A DNA stretch of 64,000 nt. Source: Phycomyces nitens (taxonomy: Eukaryota; Mucoromycota; Mucoromycetes; Mucorales; Phycomycetaceae). The notes under the pieces were generated by a model. That model ran no database searches. It worked only from the letters and a program-made list of their open reading frames with translations, and was not told the origin of the DNA. This document shows positions 574 through 56,287 of this stretch, in pieces. Position 1 is the first letter of the stretch. Every line of letters starts with the position of its first letter. The translations under genes were made by a program, and so were the position numbers. Location: assembly GCA_022702545.1 (NCBI GenBank), contig JAHRBC010000001.1, positions 5,022,001 through 5,086,000 of the forward strand, given 5' to 3'.

Positions 574-1236
574 ATGAAGATTACAGTTCTCGGTGGCTCC
601 AAAGGATGCTCTTGTGCTATGGTTAAGCAAGGTCTGGTCTCATTTCCCGACTATCAATTTACTCTGATGGTCCGTAACCCCGCTATAGTCCAGTTTACAG
701 AAGAAGAAAAGCAATCTATTAAATGGGTCAAAGGCGATGCGCGTTCCAACCAAGATATCAAGAATGCGGTTGAGGGTGCTGATTGTGTTGTGACATCGGT
801 TGGATGCACGATTAATTTGAAGGGAGCCATGGTGGATCCTGGCCTGTGCCAAGATTCAATGAAAGTGCTACTGGATGTTATTCAAGAACTCCCAGAAGAA
901 ACTCGTCCCAAAAGGCTGGTAACTGTGTCCACCACCGGTTTGGATGGAATGTCTGAGGTTCCTTATTTATTTCGCCCATTATATAAGTTTTTACTTCATG
1001 CGCCACACGAGGATAAGAAAGCAATGGAAGGTCTGGTACGAGCAAACACCGCGGTCTCGGATTGGATTATCGTTAGACCCACTCTACTGACAAACGGCCC
1101 AAAGACAGAGAAGTATCGTGATGGAGAAGGATTATGTGGCTACACGGTCTCTAGAGAAGATGTTGGTCACTTTATGCTCCACCAATGCCTAAGTAGCACA
1201 CAATGGATTAAAAAGGCACCAGTAGTCAGTAATTAA
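574..1236 (+). CDS. NAD(P)-binding atypical SDR (NmrA-like/NAD(P)H-binding) protein
   Basis: Intronless ORF of 220 aa from an ATG 54 bp downstream of a TATAAAT. The N-terminus is a Rossmann beta-alpha unit (MKITVLGGSKGCS) with a glycine motif that departs from the textbook GxxGxxG: the last glycine is Ser or Cys. It is followed by an acidic turn and the pattern GDARS, ADCVVTSVG, RLVTVSTTG and DWIIVRPTLLT, the order seen in the NAD(P)H-binding (PF13460-type) and NmrA-like families. The length is normal for that fold (about 210-250 aa). Such proteins act as flavin or quinone reductases, or as redox sensors without catalysis; the sequence does not say which. No YxxxK pair is obvious. The family call is fairly firm and the substrate is unknown. 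Confidence 0.8.
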   Translation: MKITVLGGSKGCSCAMVKQGLVSFPDYQFTLMVRNPAIVQFTEEEKQSIKWVKGDARSNQDIKNAVEGADCVVTSVGCTINLKGAMVDPGLCQDSMKVLLDVIQELPEETRPKRLVTVSTTGLDGMSEVPYLFRPLYKFLLHAPHEDKKAMEGLVRANTAVSDWIIVRPTLLTNGPKTEKYRDGEGLCGYTVSREDVGHFMLHQCLSSTQWIKKAPVVSN

Positions 1237-2225: not shown

Positions 2226-5200
2226 AGCGATATATAAAGGTATATTATTCTAGATAAAAATATGATTAATTAAAAACTAGACAGAGATATAGAAACAGTA
2301 TCAAAGATAATTCTTTAAAAGTCTTTGTTATATGCTTTGAAAAAAAAAGTGAACAAGAAAAGTCAAGGTATTTCTTGCATAAAATATTTTGCCTTTTTTT
2401 TCAAAGTCTGAACTCAAATGTATAAGTATTGCCATGACAACATAAATAAACGCTGTAATGTAGACCTGAATAATATGTAATTGGAACTATTTAGTAACTA
2501 CGTAATGTGTTCTTTCTTTAAATCATTTTTTTTTTTTGAATTAGAGTCAGATATAAACCTTTTATTAATTCAGATGAGGTACCAAAGTATAGTAGTTTTT
2601 ATTTTGTTATAAAGGTATAAATACAAGATATATGTACTATCTTTACAGCTACAATGTCTTGTTTATCAAATGGAATAACGATTAGTAAAAATTCATTTTG
2701 GTACAAAGTAGAATACCTTTAATCTATAGCAGTAGTTAGACAAAATAAAAGAACCAGAAAGATTAAAGATCTAAAAAAAAAGATTACATTTCCACTCTTT
2801 ATAATGTTTTCAATAGATGAAACTAATTGTTATCCTTTGCCAATTATAATCCTATTAATACCAACAACAATAGGTATTTTATAAAGACACGAGTTAATTA
2901 GAGCTGATAAATATTTATGTGTTGTTTCATGATACCATCAAACTATAACTACTGTTATTCCCACCTTTAGTATCAATAAGATTTTATGGCTGTTTGAAAA
3001 GCCATGATAACAAGATGAAGTAAAATAGAGAAATAACGTCGAGGTGTGGGTTGCAAGATTCTTTGTTCTACTATTCAATCATTTGTCTGGTGTAATTGCT
3101 GTCTTTTCTGTTGCAATGAAAAGGTGTATATCCTAGATTAAGTTTGTAGTTTCGGTTATTATTTTGCCTAAAGCTTCAAATGGCTAACCTTGAGAATTTT
3201 GGCCAGTTGTCAGTAATATACTTGATCACACAAGAAATTCATTCTATTTCAACGTTTTGGCTTATTTTTGTGCTCAAGATCTATCGTCTTCTTTCTCTTT
3301 TAGGTATAAGCAACAAGATAACAAGTCAGATGTTGCTTTACTACAAAACGCGAGAAAAACTGTGTTGTTAAATTACTAGACCAGATTGAGCAACTTGGCC
3401 TTGGAATCTGTGTTTGATATTTTCTCACAAAACTTTCTCTGCCCAATTACAAGCATATGGTATATTTATAAATACCAGAGCCAATTACTTATTTACATGA
3501 TCGATACTTAAGCTATTTGGCAAACGCGGGCCCAGATACCATGACCAAAGACATATATGTGGACACGGTGTAAATCACGTCTTATGCATAACAAGAGTTT
3601 CAGAAGTTTCCACATGACTGCATATGCTCAATGGTGGAATGAGCCCCATTATATCAAAGTATTAGGTTATTGCCGAGTCAAATGTTGATTTAAATCTCAT
3701 AAAGCACTCATGAAACACTCTTGAGGTTCCCTTGAAGACGAAATATACTAGTAACTCCAAATATTCAAATCCAAGACTTACAGGAAGATTTTGTAGAATT
3801 AGGTGCCAAGGCACAGTATAAGCTTTTACAGAATCTGCAGTCTATATATACATTATACATATGCTTTTTTGTTTAATGTAGACAATGCATATCTGAAAAT
3901 CATTCATGTCTATTATATTTTAGTAAGTAATGTAGAAAAAGATATTAGAGTACCGTTGGAAAGTGACAATATAATACATGGATAGTATGATTCTAATGTA
4001 CCATAAAATATTTTCAAGTTACTACGGTTCCAATATAACTCAAATAATAGGATTGTTTTTAGGGGGTCGACATCTTTTGGGTATTAAAAACACAATATCT
4101 AAGCCATATATCCAAAAACGATCAAAGTACTCAATATCAAAGCCATGGGTGTCAATTTAATAATATTTCTTGTCAAAGTATCAATAGCAGGCCAACCTTC
4201 ACAGAAACATATAGTGTACACTCATTATTCGATAGCCAAGCAAGTGAATTGTGCAAGTAGTAGAGGGGTTTTTTTTTGTAAATATTACTTTACCACTTGT
4301 CATATCACTCTATAGTATTTCTACTCGGAATTGAGACGATGTTAGTTTTTTTTAAAGAATTTTTTTTTCTATAAACAGAATGTTCTTCACATATCTATAT
4401 GGCTTTTCAATATTTACCATTTATACTTTAGGGGTAGCAGCAGCTAAATATAATTGGACAGCTCCTATGATCCTTATGATAATTATCAAAAACCCAAACC
4501 CATCTTTTGAGAGTATTTTTGGCAACGACAGAATTACACTTTCAAAAACTATAAAAAGTTTATATTTATCAGCCTATCTTTGTTGGGTTTCCCGATCATT
4601 ACTGTATGTATCAAACATCCCTGCTTTATTTCCTATAATTTTTGCCAGAGCCCCAGACCTTTTGCCTAAAGTTCGGTTGAGGAAAATGACAAATTGATCT
4701 ATTAGAGTGGCAATTGATCCACTAGAGATACGTGCGTAAAATGGGATCAGTATATCTTTGAGATTACTTCATTGCTTCTAGTCACACAGCTATTGGTATC
4801 ACGTTCTTGTCTTTTTGTGGTTTCTGGACATGAACCCAAAGAAACCCACCAGGCTTAGAAAGACAATTGAAACTAGAAGAATTTTAAAAAGACACGAGTG
4901 ATTATCTTGTCTACTGGTCTCAGCATTTGGATTGAGAATATTTATCTACTCAAACAGTGTGAGTAACCCAAGCCAACTTCCAACCCGGAATAGTGTTTTT
5001 TTTAATGATTGCCACTTGTCAGGATCAAGATGATATGGAACAATCTATTACTATATCTATGTAATGTATCAAATATAAAATATTGATTAATATCCGTTCT
5101 TCTTATTCTATTTTCCCTTGATATAAGTTGCCTTTACGATCAAGTCGGGTTCAATTGAAAAACATAAAGTGACAAAAGTTATAGCTTTCTTGACATTAGC

Positions 5201-5536
5201 ATAAAACATGCTTTGGAATATCTTGCATTTAGACAAGAATTGTGCTTTGATACTATAAAAATTAATTATGAACATTGAATTTTGAGCAATCGAAATAATA
5301 ATAAGAAGAAGAAGAAGGGAGGAAGATTAGCTGTTGTAAGATGAATGTATTTGGGAGTTGGTCCTTCAAAACCTCAATTTCACTTTCCTCTTCTGGTCTT
5401 TTTTTGACTGCAGACAACAGCTATATGGACAGCACACTCAGCTCCTATATATCAACTCTATATCTTCATAAAAATGGGAAACCAGCACAGCCAATAGTTA
5501 ATTTTCTTCTCTTTTCCTATACCCTTGAATCAAACA
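1237..5536. other. Long gene-poor AT-rich interval
   Basis: About 4.3 kb without a gene I can support. It contains a T34 tract at 2184-2217, an AAT/AAG-rich simple stretch at 5296-5320, and only short unsupported ORFs, the longest being 105 codons at 4380-4697. A TATATAT-like stretch near 5446-5452, about 85 bp before the ATG at 5537, may be the core promoter of the next gene. Decayed transposon sequence may be present but I could not identify any. Confidence 0.5.
2184..2224. repeat. Poly(T)34 followed by A7
   Basis: An uninterrupted run of 34 T (2184-2217) is followed by seven A. It could be a simple-repeat expansion or the poly(A) end of a retro-inserted transcript on the minus strand. I see no recognisable gene body or target-site duplication next to it. 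Confidence 0.8.
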
Positions 5537-7612
5537 ATGACCAAGACCGAATACATACGCCTTGACTTTCCAACCTATGAAGCCATATCGGACAAGGAGA
5601 TTGACAGAGAAACTGTCAAAGGACTATCCGATGTAGCTATATCTCAAGCCCTGAGTGACACCAACTCCATCCTCTACAGGGAGATCACTTTACGCATCAT
5701 GATGACTGCCGTTACCGGAAACAGAGCCTCTCGTCGCGAGACTAACGGTCTCGATCGTACTTGTCCCAATCTGACCATCACTACATTTGTCGATGAGACT
5801 ACTGCAAGAATCGCAAGAGAACTCTTTCCTGATTACACACTTCATTTCAATCCCCAAGAGATTGTCACTAATCCCAGACCATATGTGCTGTTCCATCTTG
5901 CTACAGAACATGCTCTCTCTATGTTTGGCTCACATGACCTAGATATTATTCATCTTGGTGGTAATCCAATGTCATACGCAAAAAGACAGCCATTCAGATC
6001 CAATGTCCATTGCTGTGTCGATGAATCTGATATTTACGTTCGTTCAGAAATGACCCGCATGCGTGAAGAACTCCATGAATTGGAAGAAGACGAATCGACA
6101 CCGAATAAGAAACGCAGCCATAAAATACATGCAAACATGGCTAATCTGATTAATAATGTTGGTCATGGATTATACTGCGACCAACCCATGCTGTGCTTGC
6201 TCTCGGGCTACAATATGCTCGTCGACCACACAAAATACGATCTTTCTTTGGAACAGATTGGATTATGTATGATACGACACAGCGTCAAACTCACCCAAGG
6301 ATTCTTTCCTTATTCTCCCGAGATGATCTATGCTGATACCGGTTACCTGTTTTCGCTTGATGCCAAATTTATCATTGACAGAGAAGAAGATACCATTACC
6401 ATTGAGTACAACAGAGCAGATCAGTTTACACGAACCTATAGATACTCCAATTATGTGGAACTGTACTCAAAAGATATCATTCGGGTCGGTGAAGAACGCT
6501 TCAAGGTCGAGCGGAACGAGCCTCATCGTGGAAACATTGTTTACTACAAAATCGCTCGCCTTTCCAGAAACACTGATATCGAAAAGATCCCAGTCCATCG
6601 CATGTCCTTCTTGGGTGCAAACCAAATGTGTGTGTTGCGCATGCATATGCCAAAAAAGAGCGATCCAGAAAGTACAAGGAAACCAAGCTTTGAACTAGTT
6701 GAGCATGTCGTGCACAAATCCATCTATTCAGTTGTCTACAACTATGCTCTGAGAATGGCGCCGGGAAAACTGAACTTCAATGAGATCAATAACCATCTCT
6801 ACAAGATCACTGGTACACAAGGGTTCAATATGAAGAGCATATTTATACCAAAACACTCGTCAGTAAAGTCAATGTATGATATTGCAAAGGCAATCTATTT
6901 CCGGGCATATTGTGAAAGATTCATGACCACCTCAACCGTCAAGATTGCGTTTGAACGTCTCGACTCCAACCTAGACTCCTACCGCTTTGACATATCGACT
7001 GCGGTATCAAATTTTGTCAAATGCTCTTATTGGAGGACATGGAAAGCCTTTATCGCTTCTCACTCGGATGACACCCAATGCCTAAAGGAGTCTGATACAG
7101 GATTTTCCAAAAAGATGTCTGGATACTTGCATGTATTTGTGAGCACATGCTTGGCTAAGAATGACCTAACTGTCGAGGATGGCGATTACCCTGAATACAT
7201 TGAATATCCTGATTACCTCCGAGAACAGCACTCCAACTGGATGGATAACATTCGACTTGGACGGGGCACAAATATTCGCCAACTCCCATTCTTTTTTGAA
7301 GGGAAAGATGCTACCTACATTGTCTGTAACTTTCATCCAAAATATCCCGGTGGCATGTGGAGCCAAAGATACGATTCTGTTGAATGTTTCCAGCAGATAC
7401 TAGTCCCAAGCGATACACAAACTGCATCTCAGGAGCAGCGCAGGATACACTATAAGGATCCCGAAAATCTGTGGATCAAGATTATTCATTTTGATGAACA
7501 ACACTTGGGCATCAAGGATGAATGGAGCGAAAAGGATGAGAATGATTCGGAATCAAATGGAAGTGCAAAAGAAACAGAAACGATGATACGTGCAATTACT
7601 TTGGATAATTGA
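5537..7612 (+). CDS. Alphavirus-superfamily-like methyltransferase/guanylyltransferase (endogenous viral-like gene)
   Basis: Intronless intact ORF of 691 aa. The ATG at 5537 has a good context (AAACAATGA); the frame opens slightly upstream but without an ATG. I see, in order, landmarks of the viral Vmethyltransf (PF01660-type) domain. His-125 lies in an H-A-L motif, where the family carries the histidine that accepts m7GMP. Next come D-L-D-I-I-H-L-G-G-N (134-143), then V-H-C-C (157-160) with Asp-165 seven residues after His-158. Cys-214 and Cys-220 follow, then Tyr-234-Asp-235, and a D-x-I-x-I-x-Y stretch followed by Tyr-301. The acid that usually follows the D-x-R part of motif II is not evident. 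The remaining C-terminal ~350 aa I do not recognise. There is no helicase or RdRp. Known members cap viral RNA on membranes. Here I infer an endogenised or domesticated copy; activity is unknown. It stands alone between two long gene-poor intervals. Confidence 0.72.
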   Translation: MTKTEYIRLDFPTYEAISDKEIDRETVKGLSDVAISQALSDTNSILYREITLRIMMTAVTGNRASRRETNGLDRTCPNLTITTFVDETTARIARELFPDYTLHFNPQEIVTNPRPYVLFHLATEHALSMFGSHDLDIIHLGGNPMSYAKRQPFRSNVHCCVDESDIYVRSEMTRMREELHELEEDESTPNKKRSHKIHANMANLINNVGHGLYCDQPMLCLLSGYNMLVDHTKYDLSLEQIGLCMIRHSVKLTQGFFPYSPEMIYADTGYLFSLDAKFIIDREEDTITIEYNRADQFTRTYRYSNYVELYSKDIIRVGEERFKVERNEPHRGNIVYYKIARLSRNTDIEKIPVHRMSFLGANQMCVLRMHMPKKSDPESTRKPSFELVEHVVHKSIYSVVYNYALRMAPGKLNFNEINNHLYKITGTQGFNMKSIFIPKHSSVKSMYDIAKAIYFRAYCERFMTTSTVKIAFERLDSNLDSYRFDISTAVSNFVKCSYWRTWKAFIASHSDDTQCLKESDTGFSKKMSGYLHVFVSTCLAKNDLTVEDGDYPEYIEYPDYLREQHSNWMDNIRLGRGTNIRQLPFFFEGKDATYIVCNFHPKYPGGMWSQRYDSVECFQQILVPSDTQTASQEQRRIHYKDPENLWIKIIHFDEQHLGIKDEWSEKDENDSESNGSAKETETMIRAITLDN

Positions 7613-10554
7613 TTATAGATAAAAGGTTTGCTAATTTATACAAGTGTATGTCTAGATTGAGGGCTATATTAAACCATTCCAGAATATAAACCCAAGGATA
7701 ATTTAAAATAAATGAATAAAAGTTAATACAACGATATCTAAAGGTAATAAGGTGTACTGCGAGTGGAAAGCGATCTGAATCTTCTTTTTCAACATAATAA
7801 ACCTCGAGTAAATATGTATAATATACCATAAACTATAATAAAAGACAATATATTTATATATATATTGCAACAATCCCAATTCATGTACAATAGAGTATCA
7901 GTCTAAAGAATATTTAACTAGATTAATTATGTATGAATACTCTCTCATGGATTCTATTTTATCTTTCAACTTGAACCATTTCCAAAGTTTCGAGAGATAC
8001 TTTTATTTAATTCCATCAAGAGAGGAACAGTGCATGTCTCTCAAGGTTTTGATAGACTTTCTTTTTCGGACCAACTTTTGAAATGAAAGTTGGATGTATA
8101 ATGTCCTTGGCATAAAAGGAACATCAACCGAGTCTCCCCCCAATGTCTATAAGTAGGTGAGCTAAAGTTAAAATATATAAGTATTGTACTAAAAGAATTA
8201 TTCCAAGATTTGCCGCTTTAGGATGCTCCAACGAATATAAGTATTAATCTATTTCATGTACTATTTTTTGTTTTCCAAAAAAAAGCGTTGGAATGTCTTG
8301 AGAAACATAAAACTGGTTGTACTTTCTTTTATATTGGTTAGTATTAGTAAAAAGTATATATACACATACATGTAATATAGTATGTAAACATGTGTTCAAA
8401 ATATCATTATCTTGATAGAAAATGTTTTACAAATTATTTTTCAAGAGCTTGATCAATTGTTCAAATAATAATTTAATTATGTTTATATACTATAATACAA
8501 TGAATCCTTTGAAAAGTACCTTTTGTAGGATACACTGTCTGATATTTAACTTTTACACTGATACTCACCAAAGTTACTGATAAAAGATTGTTTAGTTCTA
8601 CTTTAAATGTCTTTAAATAAAACTAATTAGTGGCCATAATATCTACTTGCATCATATTAAACTGGTATAGAGATGGAGAGTGTTTCATTATCATTATGGT
8701 CAACAAAAATTTATTTTTCGAATTTTTCTTACCCCTTTATTTTCAATGTGGTGCAAATAGACGACGCGTAACTTGAATTTTTCAAATTTTCGTCTTTGTA
8801 TCCCTCTTACTCTTCATCTATTGGCCCATCAATGTTCAAACTTGAATATCATCTGGTCCCACACTTCTTGAGCATGCCCTTCCAGTTTTATGTTTTTTCA
8901 TCGAGTAAAGCAAGAGCAACAAGCGTTTGAATTCTGAAACACTTTAGCGGATTTTCCTGCCTCCTTAAAATGCTGGATTTTTTGTTTACATTTCCATATT
9001 TGTCCACTGTTTTTTCGCGTCTTTATACCTACGCGTACCAAATCACGGACGAAAACTAATGTCAAATTAATCTTGAGATGATCAATTGATCATTTCATTA
9101 CCATTAGCACATTATACAATTTATAGATACTCTACTAGGCATCCCATTACCATTACAATGATCAATGATCATCATTTACACCAAAATCAGGGCATTCAAC
9201 AACAATGTCATCTCTATCTTGTACTCTAATTACAGTATATTTTCTCATTCACTACTTGTATTGCATTTCATCCTGTCGTTATCAACATTCTAATAAATTA
9301 TTTTGGAATATTTAATATTTCTTGCATCTAAACAATATCTGGCTATTTATTCTATCCAAGAGTTTTTCTTGGTTATAAGCAGAGTAAGCAAATATGATAT
9401 ATAGCTCATGACATGGTCATTATAGATAACTTGTGCCTAGGTTGTAATTATGTCTATCCCAAGTCCAAATAATGTATCTGATCAGTAGTAAATGATACAT
9501 TGTAAGAGAGAGAGAAAAGTCTGCTTTAATGCTTTGAAACTGGAATCTCTGCTTGTTCTCGATCTATGATTTGTAGTGTAACACTTGTGTTCTACAGTGT
9601 GTAAATTACCATTTTTCCCTATTTCCTTAATACTCTTATTTTTTGTGCATATACATTCATATTGGATAATCAAAGTGAAATGTCAGTCTACTTGTAGGAT
9701 ATAATTATTTGAAAATCTAGCGCAAAGAAGTGCATAGGAATCCACAAGTTGTCAATTTAAATTCCGTCTGTAATTTTGGGATTGATTCTTACACATATGC
9801 ATGAATTTGGCAATCTTTGTGTCTAGGATAACATGTTTTCCTACTTGACAAAGTGCAGACCTGCATAGAAATGACAAATACATAGACAGCATGCATGTCA
9901 CAGAGTAATCGGCTATAAACAAGCCATCTTTACTTCTTTCTATCTTTCTTTGCTAAGCATGTCCTGGAGAGGACATTAAACTGTTTGATATTAGAGGATT
10001 CGTTCTAGTGCTATTGTAAAAAGCGCTCCTTCATATACACATTTATATCCTAGATATGAAAAAAAGAAGGCCTTGAACTTTGGAAATTTTCGGGTGATAA
10101 TGACTTTTGTATAAACACAACACTGTATTCACATTGACCTTGGTCGCTTTACTGTCTAGAATTACTATATTAAAGGCAAGACATTGTGAAACTATAAAGT
10201 GACACAAGATTTATATTTAATCTTTGATCTTTACCTTTTTACTATCTTGCAAAAGTTCAGAATTTAACATTAATTGGAATTCTCGGGCATAATAATAAAC
10301 CAAGTCTATAATCAGCTTGTAAGATTGGCTATAAATACTTCTTGGAAAGGCCATGTGATTTAGTGGTATCCAAGCTTTTTATATTTCTTGGATATTTAAA
10401 GTTGTCGTGACTGCTTTAATGACATAACGCGTCTAAAATAAACGTGTAGTGCTTCAAAAAAAACCAAACGCGAATTGGATTTGGTAGTAATAAAGAAATA
10501 TATTCATATTTTCCAGCACATACCTCTTTTCATTCTTATTATACACTAGTAATT
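7613..10554. other. Gene-poor interval ending in the TOP2 promoter
   Basis: About 2.9 kb of AT-rich DNA without a supported gene. ORFs here are under 65 codons. ACGCGT words occur near 8765, 9032 and 10427; the last lies in the promoter-proximal region of TOP2. Confidence 0.55.
10427..10473 (+). promoter_or_regulatory. MCB-like elements upstream of TOP2
   Basis: ACGCGT at 10427-10432 and ACGCGA at about 10468-10473 lie 128 and 87 bp before the TOP2 ATG. ACGCGT is the MluI cell-cycle box bound by MBF (Mbp1-Swi6) in ascomycete yeasts. Function here is inferred from sequence alone. Confidence 0.45.
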
Positions 10555-13500
10555 ATGTCAGCGAGTGATGGTGAATACGACAGCAATTCTGGGGAAAGTT
10601 CTGAGGAATACTCAGACTATTCCCCTGACGAGTATGTAGAAAAACCAGAGCCCAAAAAAGTACATTGATAATACTTTCAAATATAAAATAAACTTACCCT
10701 TCATTTTAGAGAAAACTTAATGCGATCCCAAGTAAATCCTCAAATGAATCTGTCGATTCCTCAAATTCCGCAGCAGAGATTAAAACACCAAAAAAGATCA
10801 CTAAACCAAGAGGGTCAGCAGCAAAGGAGTCAACACCAAAGGCTCCAAAAGCTCCAAAGACTCCAAAAGCTCCAAAGACTCCAAAGGTCACAAAAAAAGC
10901 AGCCAAGAAAACTCCAGACGAACCAATGGATGTAGATGATGAATCTTCTATAATAAATGACAGCCCTCCATTGAGCCAATCGACTGCCAATGGTCCCGAG
11001 CGAGCTGTAGAGGAGATCTATAAGAAGAAGAGTCAGCTTGAACATATTCTTTTGCGTCCTGATACATATATCGGAACAGTCGAGCAAGAAGAGCAGGAAA
11101 TGTGGATTTTCGGTGCCGAGGATAAAATTGAGAAAAAGAAGATTAAGTATGTACCTGGTTTATACAAGATTGTAGACGAAATCCTGGTCAATGCAGCTGA
11201 TAACAAGGTAAAAATAAGGACATACAAAAAGGCTGTGCCTTTCTTCTTCTTCTTTTTCTTCAACCAGGCACTTAATTTTTTTTGGGTGCGTATGCGAATA
11301 GATCCGAGATCCTACAATGAATACTATCAAAGTCTTTATTGATCGGGCCAGTAACTTTATTTCGATTGAGAACAACGGCAAGGGTATTCCTATCCTAATC
11401 CATAAAGACGAACAAGTATACGTTCCCGAGCTTATTTTTGGCCACCTTCTTACCTCCTCCAACTATGACGATACCGAGAAAAAAGTGACTGGTGGACGTA
11501 ACGGTTACGGTGCTAAGCTTTGTAACATTTTCAGTACAGAGTTTACTGTTGAAACCGCAGACAAAGAACAGAACAAGAAATACTCGCAAACATTCAAGAA
11601 CAATATGACTATAAAGGGCGAACCCAAGATTAGTGCAAACACAAAGAAACAAGAATATACTCGAATCTCGTTTAAGCCTGACCTTTCAAAGTTTGGCATG
11701 ACTGAGATGGACGAAGACTTTGTTTCTTTGATTAAGAAGCGTGTGTACGATATGGCTGGTACAGTTAATGGAATTAATGTATATTACAACGGCACCAAGA
11801 TCCCTGTCAAGGGGTTCAAACAGTATGTCGAACTTTATACCGATTCGATGGAAATCAGAAACGCCGAAGGAAAGAAGCCCATCCTACATGACACTCCTTC
11901 TGAACGTTGGCAAGTTAGTTTTGCTGTTAGTGATGGACAATTCAACCAAGTAAGTACAAAGACACAAGAGTATTGATTTAGAGGCTCATGCGTAATCGTA
12001 GGTTAGTTTTGTCAACAGTATTTGTACCCCAAAGGGTGGAACCCATGTGAACCATGTAGCCGATCAGATTGTCAAAGGCCTTATGGGAGATGTCCAAAAG
12101 AAAACAGGAAACAAGAGCATCAAGCCTTTCCAGATCAAGAACCATATGTGTATATTTGTCAATTGTCTTGTAGAAAATCCTACCTTTGACTCCCAAACCA
12201 AGGAAAACATGACACTTAAGATGAGCTCATTTGGATCGACTTATCAAGCAAGCGAAAAGTTTATCTCAGCTGGTAAATCATTAGTACATATATTGGCTCT
12301 ATTTAATAGTATCTATACTGATAAATATCGTATGCGAATTATAGTTGCAAAGTCGGGTATTATTGACAATATTGTTAAATGGGTCAAGTATAAGGAGGAT
12401 ACACAGATGATCAAGGCTGACAGTGGCAAGATGTCAAGACGTCTTAATATTCCCAAGCTCGAAGATGCCAACTGGGCTGGTGTGAAGCCCAAGAACAAAA
12501 GATGTACTTTGATCCTTACTGAGGGAGATTCTGCAAAGGCATTAGTTATGAGTGGATTGTCTGTGGTTGGTCGTGATGAGTATGGTGTCTTTCCTCTCCG
12601 TGGTAAACTTCTCAATGTTCGAGATGCATCGTCTACTGCAATCATGAGCAATGCCGAAATTACCAATGTCAAGTCTATTCTCGGTCTCAAGCATGCTCAA
12701 AAGTATAATTCAAGTGATGAGCTTCGTTATGGAAAATTGATGATCATGACTGATCAGGTAAGCTATAAAAGCAAGCATGCGTATGACGATATTAAATATT
12801 AAGAAAATGATGTGTATACAAAAAGGATCATGATGGTTCTCATATCAAGGGTCTATTAATTAATTTCATCGATCAAATGTTCCCAAGTCTGTTGGATATT
12901 CCTGGGTTCTTGTTGGAGTTTATTACACCCATTATTAGAGTAAGTATTCAAGAAAAACATTTGATAGAATGAACTAACCCATCATCACAGTGTACCCACA
13001 AAAGAACCAAAGAACGCAAGACATTCTTTACTATTCCTGAATATGAGAACTGGGCTCTTGAGAACAACGTCAATAAAGAGTGGACCCCCAAATACTTCAA
13101 GGTAAGATTTTAATATAGACGCAAGACATTTTTTCTTAATAGTATATGTATATATATATAGGGTTTGGGTACTTCCGATCGTAACGATGCAAGAGAATAT
13201 TTTGGAGATCTTCCTACCCATGTCAAGGAATTTCAGACAGCAGATGAAGAAGACCGAAAGCTGATTGAGATGGCCTTTGCTAAGAAAAAGGTTACTGATC
13301 GTAAAGAATGGCTTTCAACCTACGAGGTAAGCACACCGTTTTAATGATTCATCTAAACAGAATATAAAGCACTTTTACTTATTATTCTCTTAAATACAGC
13401 CTGGAATCTTCATTGATCATAATGTCCAAAAGATCAAGATCTCTGACTTTGTCAACCGAGAACTGATGCTGTTTAGTATGGCAGACAATATTCGCTCTAT

Positions 13501-53701: not shown

Positions 53702-56287
53702 TTAGGCTTTGCCAACATCTTCCTTTAGTGTTACTGTGCGGTTGACCACCAGACGTCCAAGACCTTCTCTCACCTGACCCTTGGTGATCTTGGAGAGGTC
53801 AAACTCAGTGTCCTTGTCAAGACAGAAATAACCTGTCCGGACAAACTGCCATCGCATGCTCTCCTTATCAGCACCACCCGTCTTGGTGGCCCAGCTGGCA
53901 ATCTGGTCATAGATACCCACGCTAGCAATAGCTCCAGTCACGGTAGTTAGGGAGTGACTGTTGATGTCATTGAGGAACCCTCCCTCGGCAGAATCAGGAT
54001 TAGCGTGCTTGAACAATGGCTCATACAGGCGCACTTGGTCAAGTCGCACAGGGGAGTTGTGGTCAGGAGACTCTGCAATCCAGTGAATGTAGGTCTTTGG
54101 CTTCTTGAACGGAATGTCGTTCTCGTACTTGCACACCAACTCGGCAATAGAACCATCTGCATTCTTCTTGACCTCGAGGCAGCGCACAGGGTATTTGACA
54201 TTCAAAAGGCCAACAGACTTGCCAGGTGCCATGCGGTAATAGTCCTTGGAATCCTGCTCACGGAAGTCAGATCCATCGATATAGACCACACGGGTAAAGG
54301 GCACGGTATGTTCGCCAAAGCTAGGGTCCTTGGGCTTGTTGGCAACAACAATCTCCTCGAGGTAGTTCTCGGGCAGGTTCTCCAGAACAACCTTGACAGG
54401 GTTCAGGATCGCCATCAGACGAGGTGTGCTACGGTCCAGATACTCGCGAGTCTTGGCGTCAAATCGAAGGGCATCAATGTTGGACACCGAGGTCGTGACA
54501 CCCAGTTCGAGAACAAAGGTGTTGATGGCCTCTGGAGGCACACCACGGCGACGCAGACCAACCAGAGTGTAGAGACGGGGATCATCCCACCCATTCACAT
54601 AGTTGTTATTGACCATCTTGAGAATCTTGCGCTTGGACATGATTGTGCCGGTTACATTGAGGCGTCCATATTCCCACTGTACAGGCTTGTACACCTCAAC
54701 TGCGTCCACAAGCCAGTAATAGCTCTCTCGGGACTGTCTAAATTCGGTGGTGCAGAGCGAGTGGGTGATGTTCTCAAACGAGTCAACAAGGCAGTGGGTA
54801 TAGTCATAGGTGGGGTAGATGCACCAATCAGACCCAGTACGATGGTGAGGTGTATAGAGCACGCGGTAGGCAATCAGATCCCAGAACTGTGGGTTTCCAT
54901 CTTCGAGGTTCATCTTCATTCGCAGTGTGGTCTCTCCTTCCTTGTATCTGCCTTCCTTCATCTTTTGGAACTGCTCCAGAGTCTCTTCTATAGGGCGGTC
55001 CCGGTGCTCACAAGCAGTTCTGGGTCCTCCATTGTCTCCACCACGGTGCTCATGGATCTGGGGTCCAGTGCACTGGCAGGTGTAGGCAAGTCCTTTGCGA
55101 ATCAGCTTGAGGGCAAGTTCATAGAGCTCCTGGAAGTAGTCGCTCGAGTATGTGATCTTGAAAGGCTCGAATCCCAACCAACGCACGGTCTCCAGGATCG
55201 ACAAAAAGTACTTTTCCTCTTCTGCCTCTGGATTGGTGTCATCGTAACGCAAGTAGGTTATACCGTTGTGAGCCTTTGCGTAACCAAAGTTGACGTTGAT
55301 GGCCTTGGCATGACCAATGTGCAAATAACCGTTGGGCTCAGGTGGGAAACGGGTAACGACCTTTCCACCAGTGGCCTTGAGGTGCTCGGCCATCAATTCT
55401 GGCTTGATCTGCTTGTTACCTCCGGGCTTGTGCAGACGAGCCAACTCTCCCTCAAAGAACATGTTGGCCACATCAGGCTTGGCCTCTTCCTTTTCATTCT
55501 TGGCATTAGAGGCAGGTGCTTTAGTAGCCTTGGGCTCCTTCTTCTTCTTTTGAGGAGCATCACGCTCATCCTTGGGGCCAAGAAGTTTAAGGTAGGCTTC
55601 ATCAATTGCCTGCTTGATCTTTCCACCATCGGCCCAGCGGAGGGCTGGGATCTTGCGGACATTGGCAAGAGTAGGACCAAGGGTCTTGTAACGGTCCTTG
55701 AGGATTGTATCCTTGTTGGCGTCCAGGTAGGTCTGGATAGCCTTTTGGATATCAGCCAAAGTGACGACAATACCTATCGTTTTACTCTTACCCTTAGTTT
55801 ACTCCAATCCAACATTTATCCCCCCTTTTTTATATATATTATTATTACTCACCGACACCAGAGGCCTCATTAAAGGCAGTCTCGTCAATAGTCTGGGCAT
55901 TCTCGGCGTACTTTATGGCAGCTAGTTGGGTGGGTTAAAAAGATGTGTTGTTAAAAATCTATAGTCCATTGGTAGGGTTCGACATTTCAATCTATAAATG
56001 ATCAAAATAAGGTCAATAGGCGTACCTGTAACCTGGTCAGTGGTCTTGAGGTCGCCCTTGACAATCTTGTTTACGAGGTAAGCACGATGCTGAGTGGCAT
56101 CCTTGGTAATAGTGGTAGCGAGTTGGTAGAGAAGGATGCCGACATCCTTGTCACATCCATTGGTGCGCACATTGGCTTCATCAATTACTGACTCGAGTGT
56201 GGGCGATAGTTTCTTGTTCTTGGCCGTGTCTTTGGCCTTTTGTTCAGAGAGTCCGATTTTGACAAAGAGCTCTACGAGGGGATCCAT
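53702..56287 (-). CDS. GLN4: Glutaminyl-tRNA synthetase, cytosolic
   Basis: Class I synthetase charging tRNA-Gln. Three exons on the minus strand, 56287-56026, 55921-55853 and 55773-53702, give 800 aa, nearly the yeast length (809). The first ~190 residues are the eukaryote-specific N-terminal appended domain (MDPLVELFVKIGLSEQKAKD; YLVNKIVKGDL), followed by a Lys-rich linker (PQKKKKEPKATKAP). The catalytic Rossmann fold has the HIGH motif (PPEPNGYLHIGHAK), YDDTNPEAE and the MSKRK loop (VTGTIMSKRK). The anticodon-binding beta-barrels follow (DFREQDSKDYYRMAPG; KTYIHW). A 639-codon antisense ORF spans the third exon and is a shadow. Confidence 0.97.

Follow-up and report, generated by a model that had tools for sequence, protein, structure and literature searches.

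The analysed stretch of the Phycomyces nitens genome (the window; 64,000 nucleotides, C1:5022001-5086000 on a contig of 9,945,285 bases) carries an intact, intronless frame of 691 codons on the plus strand, running from the ATG at 5537 to the TGA at 7610-7612 (Table 1). The open frame extends upstream to the TTG at 5525 and its first ATG is the one at 5537, within the start context AAACAATGA, where the base at -3 is A. A sequence-only reading had described 691 codons free of stops and introns, a good start context and gene-poor surroundings, and each of these descriptions held: no other ORF of at least 150 amino acids is listed between the gene for an NAD(P)-binding protein upstream and the exon with HATPase_c similarity downstream. 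Shuffling the ORF's own bases (2,000 shuffles, three forward frames) gave longest open runs of 88 codons on average and 246 at most. At third codon positions, two host genes of the window have GC contents of 0.61 and 0.52 and the ORF has 0.45, a mild gap open to either interpretation. Searches of the 49-Mb, 11-contig genome with the protein and with a 211-residue core piece (E up to 10) returned only the ORF itself, copy counts of this kind being lower bounds. The paired AATAAA hexamers beyond the stop are possibly host polyadenylation signals, or chance occurrences in A+T-rich DNA.

The ORF sits in host chromosome C1 and is flanked by genes with cellular Pfam domains; the downstream gene, whose HATPase_c match lies under the family cut-off, resembles topoisomerase II by eye. 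Two small ORFs (4380-4697 and 5341-5565) matched nothing when scanned against Pfam. The flanks are A+T-rich, and the dispersed repeat on the downstream side has 31 other genomic copies among the matches listed, at 70-94% identity, with no clear terminal inverted repeats. Flanking direct repeats were considered as target-site duplications and rejected, the only pairs being 14-16 bases long and chance-like. The locus seems to be present in a second assembly as well, because the ORF's own protein and that of its neighbour are both recorded on a contig of 809,118 bases, which is not C1. Elsewhere in the window, a glutaminyl-tRNA synthetase gene (53705-55759, minus strand) lies opposite a 639-codon open frame (53954-55870, plus strand); this antisense frame has no Pfam match and in all likelihood arose as a side effect of codon usage.

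Table 1. Features at the capping-like ORF, with the polymerase match found elsewhere in the genome. Positions refer to the window unless a contig is named.
Feature	Position	Strand	Remarks
NAD(P)-binding protein gene	574-1236		Upstream flank of the ORF
Intact intronless ORF, 691 aa	5537..7612	+	One copy found; P. blakesleeanus ortholog 694 aa, 81% identity
PF01660-matched stretch, residues 94-364	5816..6628	+	Colinear matches merged; span 10-244 of the 310 profile positions; <27 bits
His125, candidate carrier of m7GMP	5909..5911	+	Assigned by eye; invariant in ortholog; viral role as described in PMC6165433
Gly-Gly-Asn 141-143	5957..5965	+	Invariant in ortholog
Val-His-Cys-Cys 157-160	6005..6016	+	Invariant in ortholog
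Asp165, candidate S-adenosylmethionine-binding Asp	6029..6031	+	Assigned by eye; invariant in ortholog; viral residue as described in PMC6165433
Residues 212-220 with Cys214 and Cys220	6170..6196	+	9/9 identical between species
Tyr234-Asp235	6236..6241	+	Invariant in ortholog
C-terminal part, residues 365-691	6629..7609	+	267/327 residues identical in ortholog
Two AATAAA hexamers	7707..7720	+	95 and 103 bases past the stop; possible host polyadenylation signals
Dispersed repeat	8521-9190		~900 bases beyond the ORF
HATPase_c exon	11317-11976		E 6.1e-5, under the HATPase_c cut-off; downstream flank of the ORF
RdRP_1 match	C6:1050340-1050969	-	ORF at L005:1129-2868

Among 5.8 billion proteins, searched by a method that requires shared five-residue words, the only other protein found was a hypothetical protein of Phycomyces blakesleeanus (F4703DRAFT_1046707; 694 residues, 81% identical), which has the same ends and differs in length, in frame, by 3 residues. 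The next gene upstream shows 80% identity to its P. blakesleeanus counterpart and has relatives widespread in Mucorales; counting self, protein matches numbered 2 for the ORF and 42 for this neighbour, many of them with Mucorales names. The narrow range of the ORF would be expected if it was acquired within the Phycomyces lineage, or if it diverged fast. Its start, its end and its divergence, measured against one neighbour gene and hence on a thin calibration, are consistent with a single insertion that predates the separation of the two species. We infer orthology from the equal divergence and the shared ends, and with it the probable vertical descent of one insertion in both species. A recently endogenised segment had been among the earlier suggestions and is not borne out: recent capture is disfavoured because an ORF with the same ends exists in P. 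blakesleeanus at host-gene divergence (81% vs 80%).

Selection, the other cause that had been offered for the long open frame, found support at the protein level. Codons of the ORF were randomly substituted until 131 of them differed (1,000 runs each at kappa 1, 2 and 4) under a simple neutral model with a uniform base target, one lineage and no indels. The 131 observed replacements include no stop, compared with neutral means of 7.3, 6.5 and 5.6 (kappa 1, 2 and 4), and stop-free neutral runs numbered 0, 1 and 2 per 1,000. The mean BLOSUM62 score of the observed differences (+0.19) exceeded that of all 3,000 runs (maxima -0.06, +0.08 and +0.17). Conservative changes made up 60/131 (45.8%) against neutral means of 30-33%, with a few neutral runs approaching or exceeding the observed value (maxima 44.0, 45.9 and 47.1%). 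Because no stop occurs among the replacements and the changes are unusually conservative, the comparison of the two sequences points to purifying selection, and the ORF has very probably been kept by it.

The landmark residues of the capping-like region lie in the order and spacing, and at the places, that the sequence-only reading gave for them: H125, G141-G142-N143, V157-H158-C159-C160, D165, C214, C220 and Y234-D235. Only its "late Tyr" was unspecified, and several Tyr residues fit. We take the order His, GGN, VH-C, Asp, Cys pair and Tyr to be that of the methyltransferase-guanylyltransferase motifs of the alphavirus superfamily. All of these residues are identical in the P. blakesleeanus ortholog, and the Cys pair is kept amid variable stretches (23/39 residues identical before residues 212-220, 0/4 after). 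The landmarks with their spacing, written as a pattern, occur once in the 127,996 six-frame residues of the window and in 0/20,000 protein shuffles, and a looser two-motif pattern once in the window and in 3/20,000 shuffles; these counts are descriptive, since the patterns were written after the ORF had been read. By eye, H125, D165 and Y234-D235 appear able to fill the viral His, Asp and Tyr roles. For the nodavirus enzyme it has been proposed that a His carries the guanylate and that S-adenosylmethionine is bound by an Asp; where alphaviruses have the Tyr this enzyme has a Trp, and seven residues past its His lies an Arg that is highly conserved (PMC6165433). No counterpart of this Arg was found at +7 from H125.

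The claimed similarity to a viral capping domain was recovered with Pfam family PF01660, colinearly, on pieces of both orthologs and below the curated cut-off. Seven of 12 core-containing inputs matched (5/8 from the window, 2/4 from the ortholog): window pieces 5804-6436 (E 5.2e-5), 5537-6628 (1.2e-4), 5864-6628 (2.6e-4), 5834-6793 (3.1e-4) and 5867-6349 (4.4e-4), and ortholog pieces of 161 aa (2.6e-5) and 219 aa (9e-5). Several piece boundaries were chosen by the analyst, and the E-values were computed over all 24,736 families, which makes them conservative for PF01660 because that family had been named beforehand. Scores ranged from 19.9 to 23.9 bits (best ortholog piece 23.9, best window piece 22.9), and no input reached 27 bits. 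The five inputs that missed PF01660 were both full-length proteins, window 5714-6796, window 5864-7609 and a 323-aa ortholog piece. These misses may stem from HMMER prefilters, because overlapping pieces match or do not. The full-length ORF protein had no Pfam match with E allowed up to 1, nor did residues 389-691 when scanned on their own. Scrambled controls of a 320-aa piece (four shuffles and one reversal) gave PF01660 in 0/5, with one shuffle matching another family at E 0.051. Further Pfam matches of the pieces were all weak (THAP9_C, E 0.018-0.039; 7tm_6, 0.07-0.17; RepB-RCR_reg, 0.06-0.45).

Other searches added little. The PF01660 search of the genome, run with no positive control, returned nothing. 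In the PDB, a sequence search with the full protein and a profile search (E up to 10) gave no match, and a 161-aa piece gave two weak, unrelated ones. AlphaFold2 models built from the two-sequence alignment were too poor for use (mean pLDDT 29.7 for the full length, 36.1 for residues 70-430). No viral relative was found by sequence among the 5.8 billion proteins or the viral contigs. One PHROGs match (E 0.17) was disregarded; one stretch fitting a degenerate motif pattern on a 43.8-kb viral contig was attributed to chance, its overlapping ORFs having no capping-like look by eye.

The earlier reading had also noted no piece of a helicase or polymerase nearby. In the whole genome, Viral_helicase1 had no match (12 candidates scored; control positive in 9/14 genomes), nor did RdRP_2, the alpha-type polymerase, for which the control was positive nowhere. 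RdRP_1 matched once, in an intact 579-aa ORF on contig C6 (PF00680, E 1.3e-18), which shows that a virus-derived gene, of another polymerase type, is detectable in this genome. This ORF probably corresponds to the Phycomyces endogenous RdRp gene of PMC7482067, in which Myers et al. (2020) describe an expressed gene of this kind from two species of the genus as well as from Mortierellales. Exon pieces matching the host capping families were found for the triphosphatase (C5), guanylyltransferase-type proteins (C9 and C7) and the N7-methyltransferase (C1). With matches to these families present, the ORF is unlikely to have replaced host capping and more probably stands alongside it. The sole PF03291 (mRNA cap N7-methyltransferase) locus found, C1:4992762-4993818, lies ~34 kb upstream of the capping-like ORF; the proximity is probably a coincidence.

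We propose that the ORF is a fungal gene derived from an alphavirus-superfamily capping domain, an old integration kept after insertion, and consider this reading reasonably probable as a whole; its viral origin, as against a very divergent host family, appears highly probable. The donor would have been an alphavirus-superfamily RNA virus with a methyltransferase-guanylyltransferase domain. Its RNA would have been copied into DNA and inserted before P. blakesleeanus and P. nitens diverged, and the capping-domain protein alone would have been retained from the integrated virus. Viral enzymes of this type methylate GTP first and then hand m7GMP via a His to RNA. By analogy, the predicted protein may bind S-adenosylmethionine and GTP and make m7GTP, and m7GMP might be taken onto a histidine and be transferable to 5'-diphosphate RNA in the cytoplasm. 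The role under selection would then be capping chemistry in the cytoplasm or hindrance of related viruses, alongside the usual capping genes. The conserved landmarks favour retained chemistry, and we rate retained putative catalysis at a little under an even chance. That Phycomyces owns an active, virus-derived cytoplasmic capping or recapping enzyme of the "methylate GTP first" kind, beside its nuclear capping genes, is a more tentative proposition and on balance doubtful.

The absent helicase and polymerase matches leave room for a different use, in which the virus-derived protein would be kept as an antiviral decoy: it would join the ring-shaped replication complexes that related infecting viruses build and disable them, with catalysis dispensable. 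A capping-type domain standing without helicase or polymerase match would suit this, as would the report that methyltransferase domains occur in two viruses of Rhizopus, one virga-like and the other an endornavirus (PMC11351042), that of viruses akin to Virgaviridae by polymerase in Glomeromycotina (PMC7482067) and that of a nodavirus replicase with such a domain that builds a 12-fold "crown" (PMC6165433). However, the retention of the putative catalytic residues and of Cys214 and Cys220, a pair set amid variable stretches, exceeds what a decoy needs, and nothing among the proteins or viral contigs searched linked the ORF to a present-day virus; we regard this use as unlikely. A fast-diverged host family of other origin, with PF01660 matched by chance or distant analogy, would account for the sub-threshold scores, the misses in 5/12 inputs, the lack of a structure and the missing Arg at +7. 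It fits poorly with a family named in advance and then matched with E-values as low as 2.6e-5 when all families are counted, colinearly over most of the profile, with ordered landmarks and 0/5 controls, and with the failure to find relatives outside Phycomyces among 5.8 billion proteins, and seems improbable.

Two further explanations carry very little weight. The A+T-rich flanks and the dispersed repeat ~900 bases downstream would suit a passive relic, an endogenised fragment left open by luck, but the 131 differences hold 0 stops, the replacements are more conservative than under neutral simulation and the ORF ends are conserved in the ortholog; we give this account hardly any credence. Independent integration of one viral ORF into each of the two species, with the constraint dating from its time as a virus, would be compatible with the P. 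blakesleeanus records, in which the ORF ortholog and the neighbour ortholog are listed on contigs of different length (7,033,412 bases and, for the longest of three, 9,577,251); yet a fast-changing RNA virus would hardly have happened to match the neighbour in divergence (81% and 80%), and this account too is very improbable.

Genes for polymerases, coat proteins and nucleoproteins derived from viruses are known in host genomes. The proposed gene resembles the alphavirus-superfamily capping domain (PF01660; nsP1 and virga/bromo-like replicases) in its colinearity over residues 94-364 and its landmark order, and differs in being a single chromosomal gene below the Pfam cut-off. Unlike the replicases of that superfamily, it has no helicase or polymerase match, and it carries ~330 further C-terminal residues, with no Pfam match in residues 389-691. 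The nearest parallel by host is the RdRp gene of Phycomycetaceae and Mortierellales, which is likewise from this genus, virus-derived, conserved between species and reported as expressed, but the polymerase that it encodes belongs to a different group of viruses (RdRP_1 type), and the authors consider it older because Mortierellales have it too (PMC7482067). CsFRLS1 of cucumber (Chiba et al. 2011, PMC3136472) is an endogenous alpha-like replicase region that includes a methyltransferase domain; it is a plant element, nearest to citriviruses (Betaflexiviridae), and combines methyltransferase and helicase, and hence is no standalone capping gene. The virga/nege-like endogenous elements described by Kondo et al. 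(2019) stem from the same broad virus group but belong to insects, and in planthoppers a co-opted virus-derived gene has been described (PMC10636211).

Among fungal viruses, P3 of polymycoviruses and hadakavirus is a standalone methyltransferase on its own segment, but is reported as the AdoMet_MTase type cd02440 (PMC7251205, PMC7606342), and PF01660 is not mentioned in PMC7251205 within the terms searched; polymycovirus P3 was set aside as a donor on this described domain type. Virga-like mycoviruses, one of them in a Mucorales host, have methyltransferase domains and are a plausible kind of donor, although in those described the domain is coupled to a helicase or polymerase. A survey of RdRp-derived elements (PMC12548735) has neither the word Phycomyces nor methyltransferase in its main text, and a tick-virome paper was rejected as a prior report, Phycomyces being merely among the organisms found in its RNA data. 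No report of the Phycomyces gene or of a standalone endogenous fungal capping domain was among the matches listed from the open-licence literature.

To our knowledge, the viral capping route that begins with GTP is known only from viruses. If the protein is active, Phycomyces would be a cellular owner of this chemistry, and the gene would offer a way to study RNA capping in the cytoplasm, or virus resistance in Mucorales. Since a virus-derived polymerase gene has already been reported for Phycomyces, the capping-domain gene would bring the RNA-virus genes apparently retained in this genus to two or more, of differing origin.
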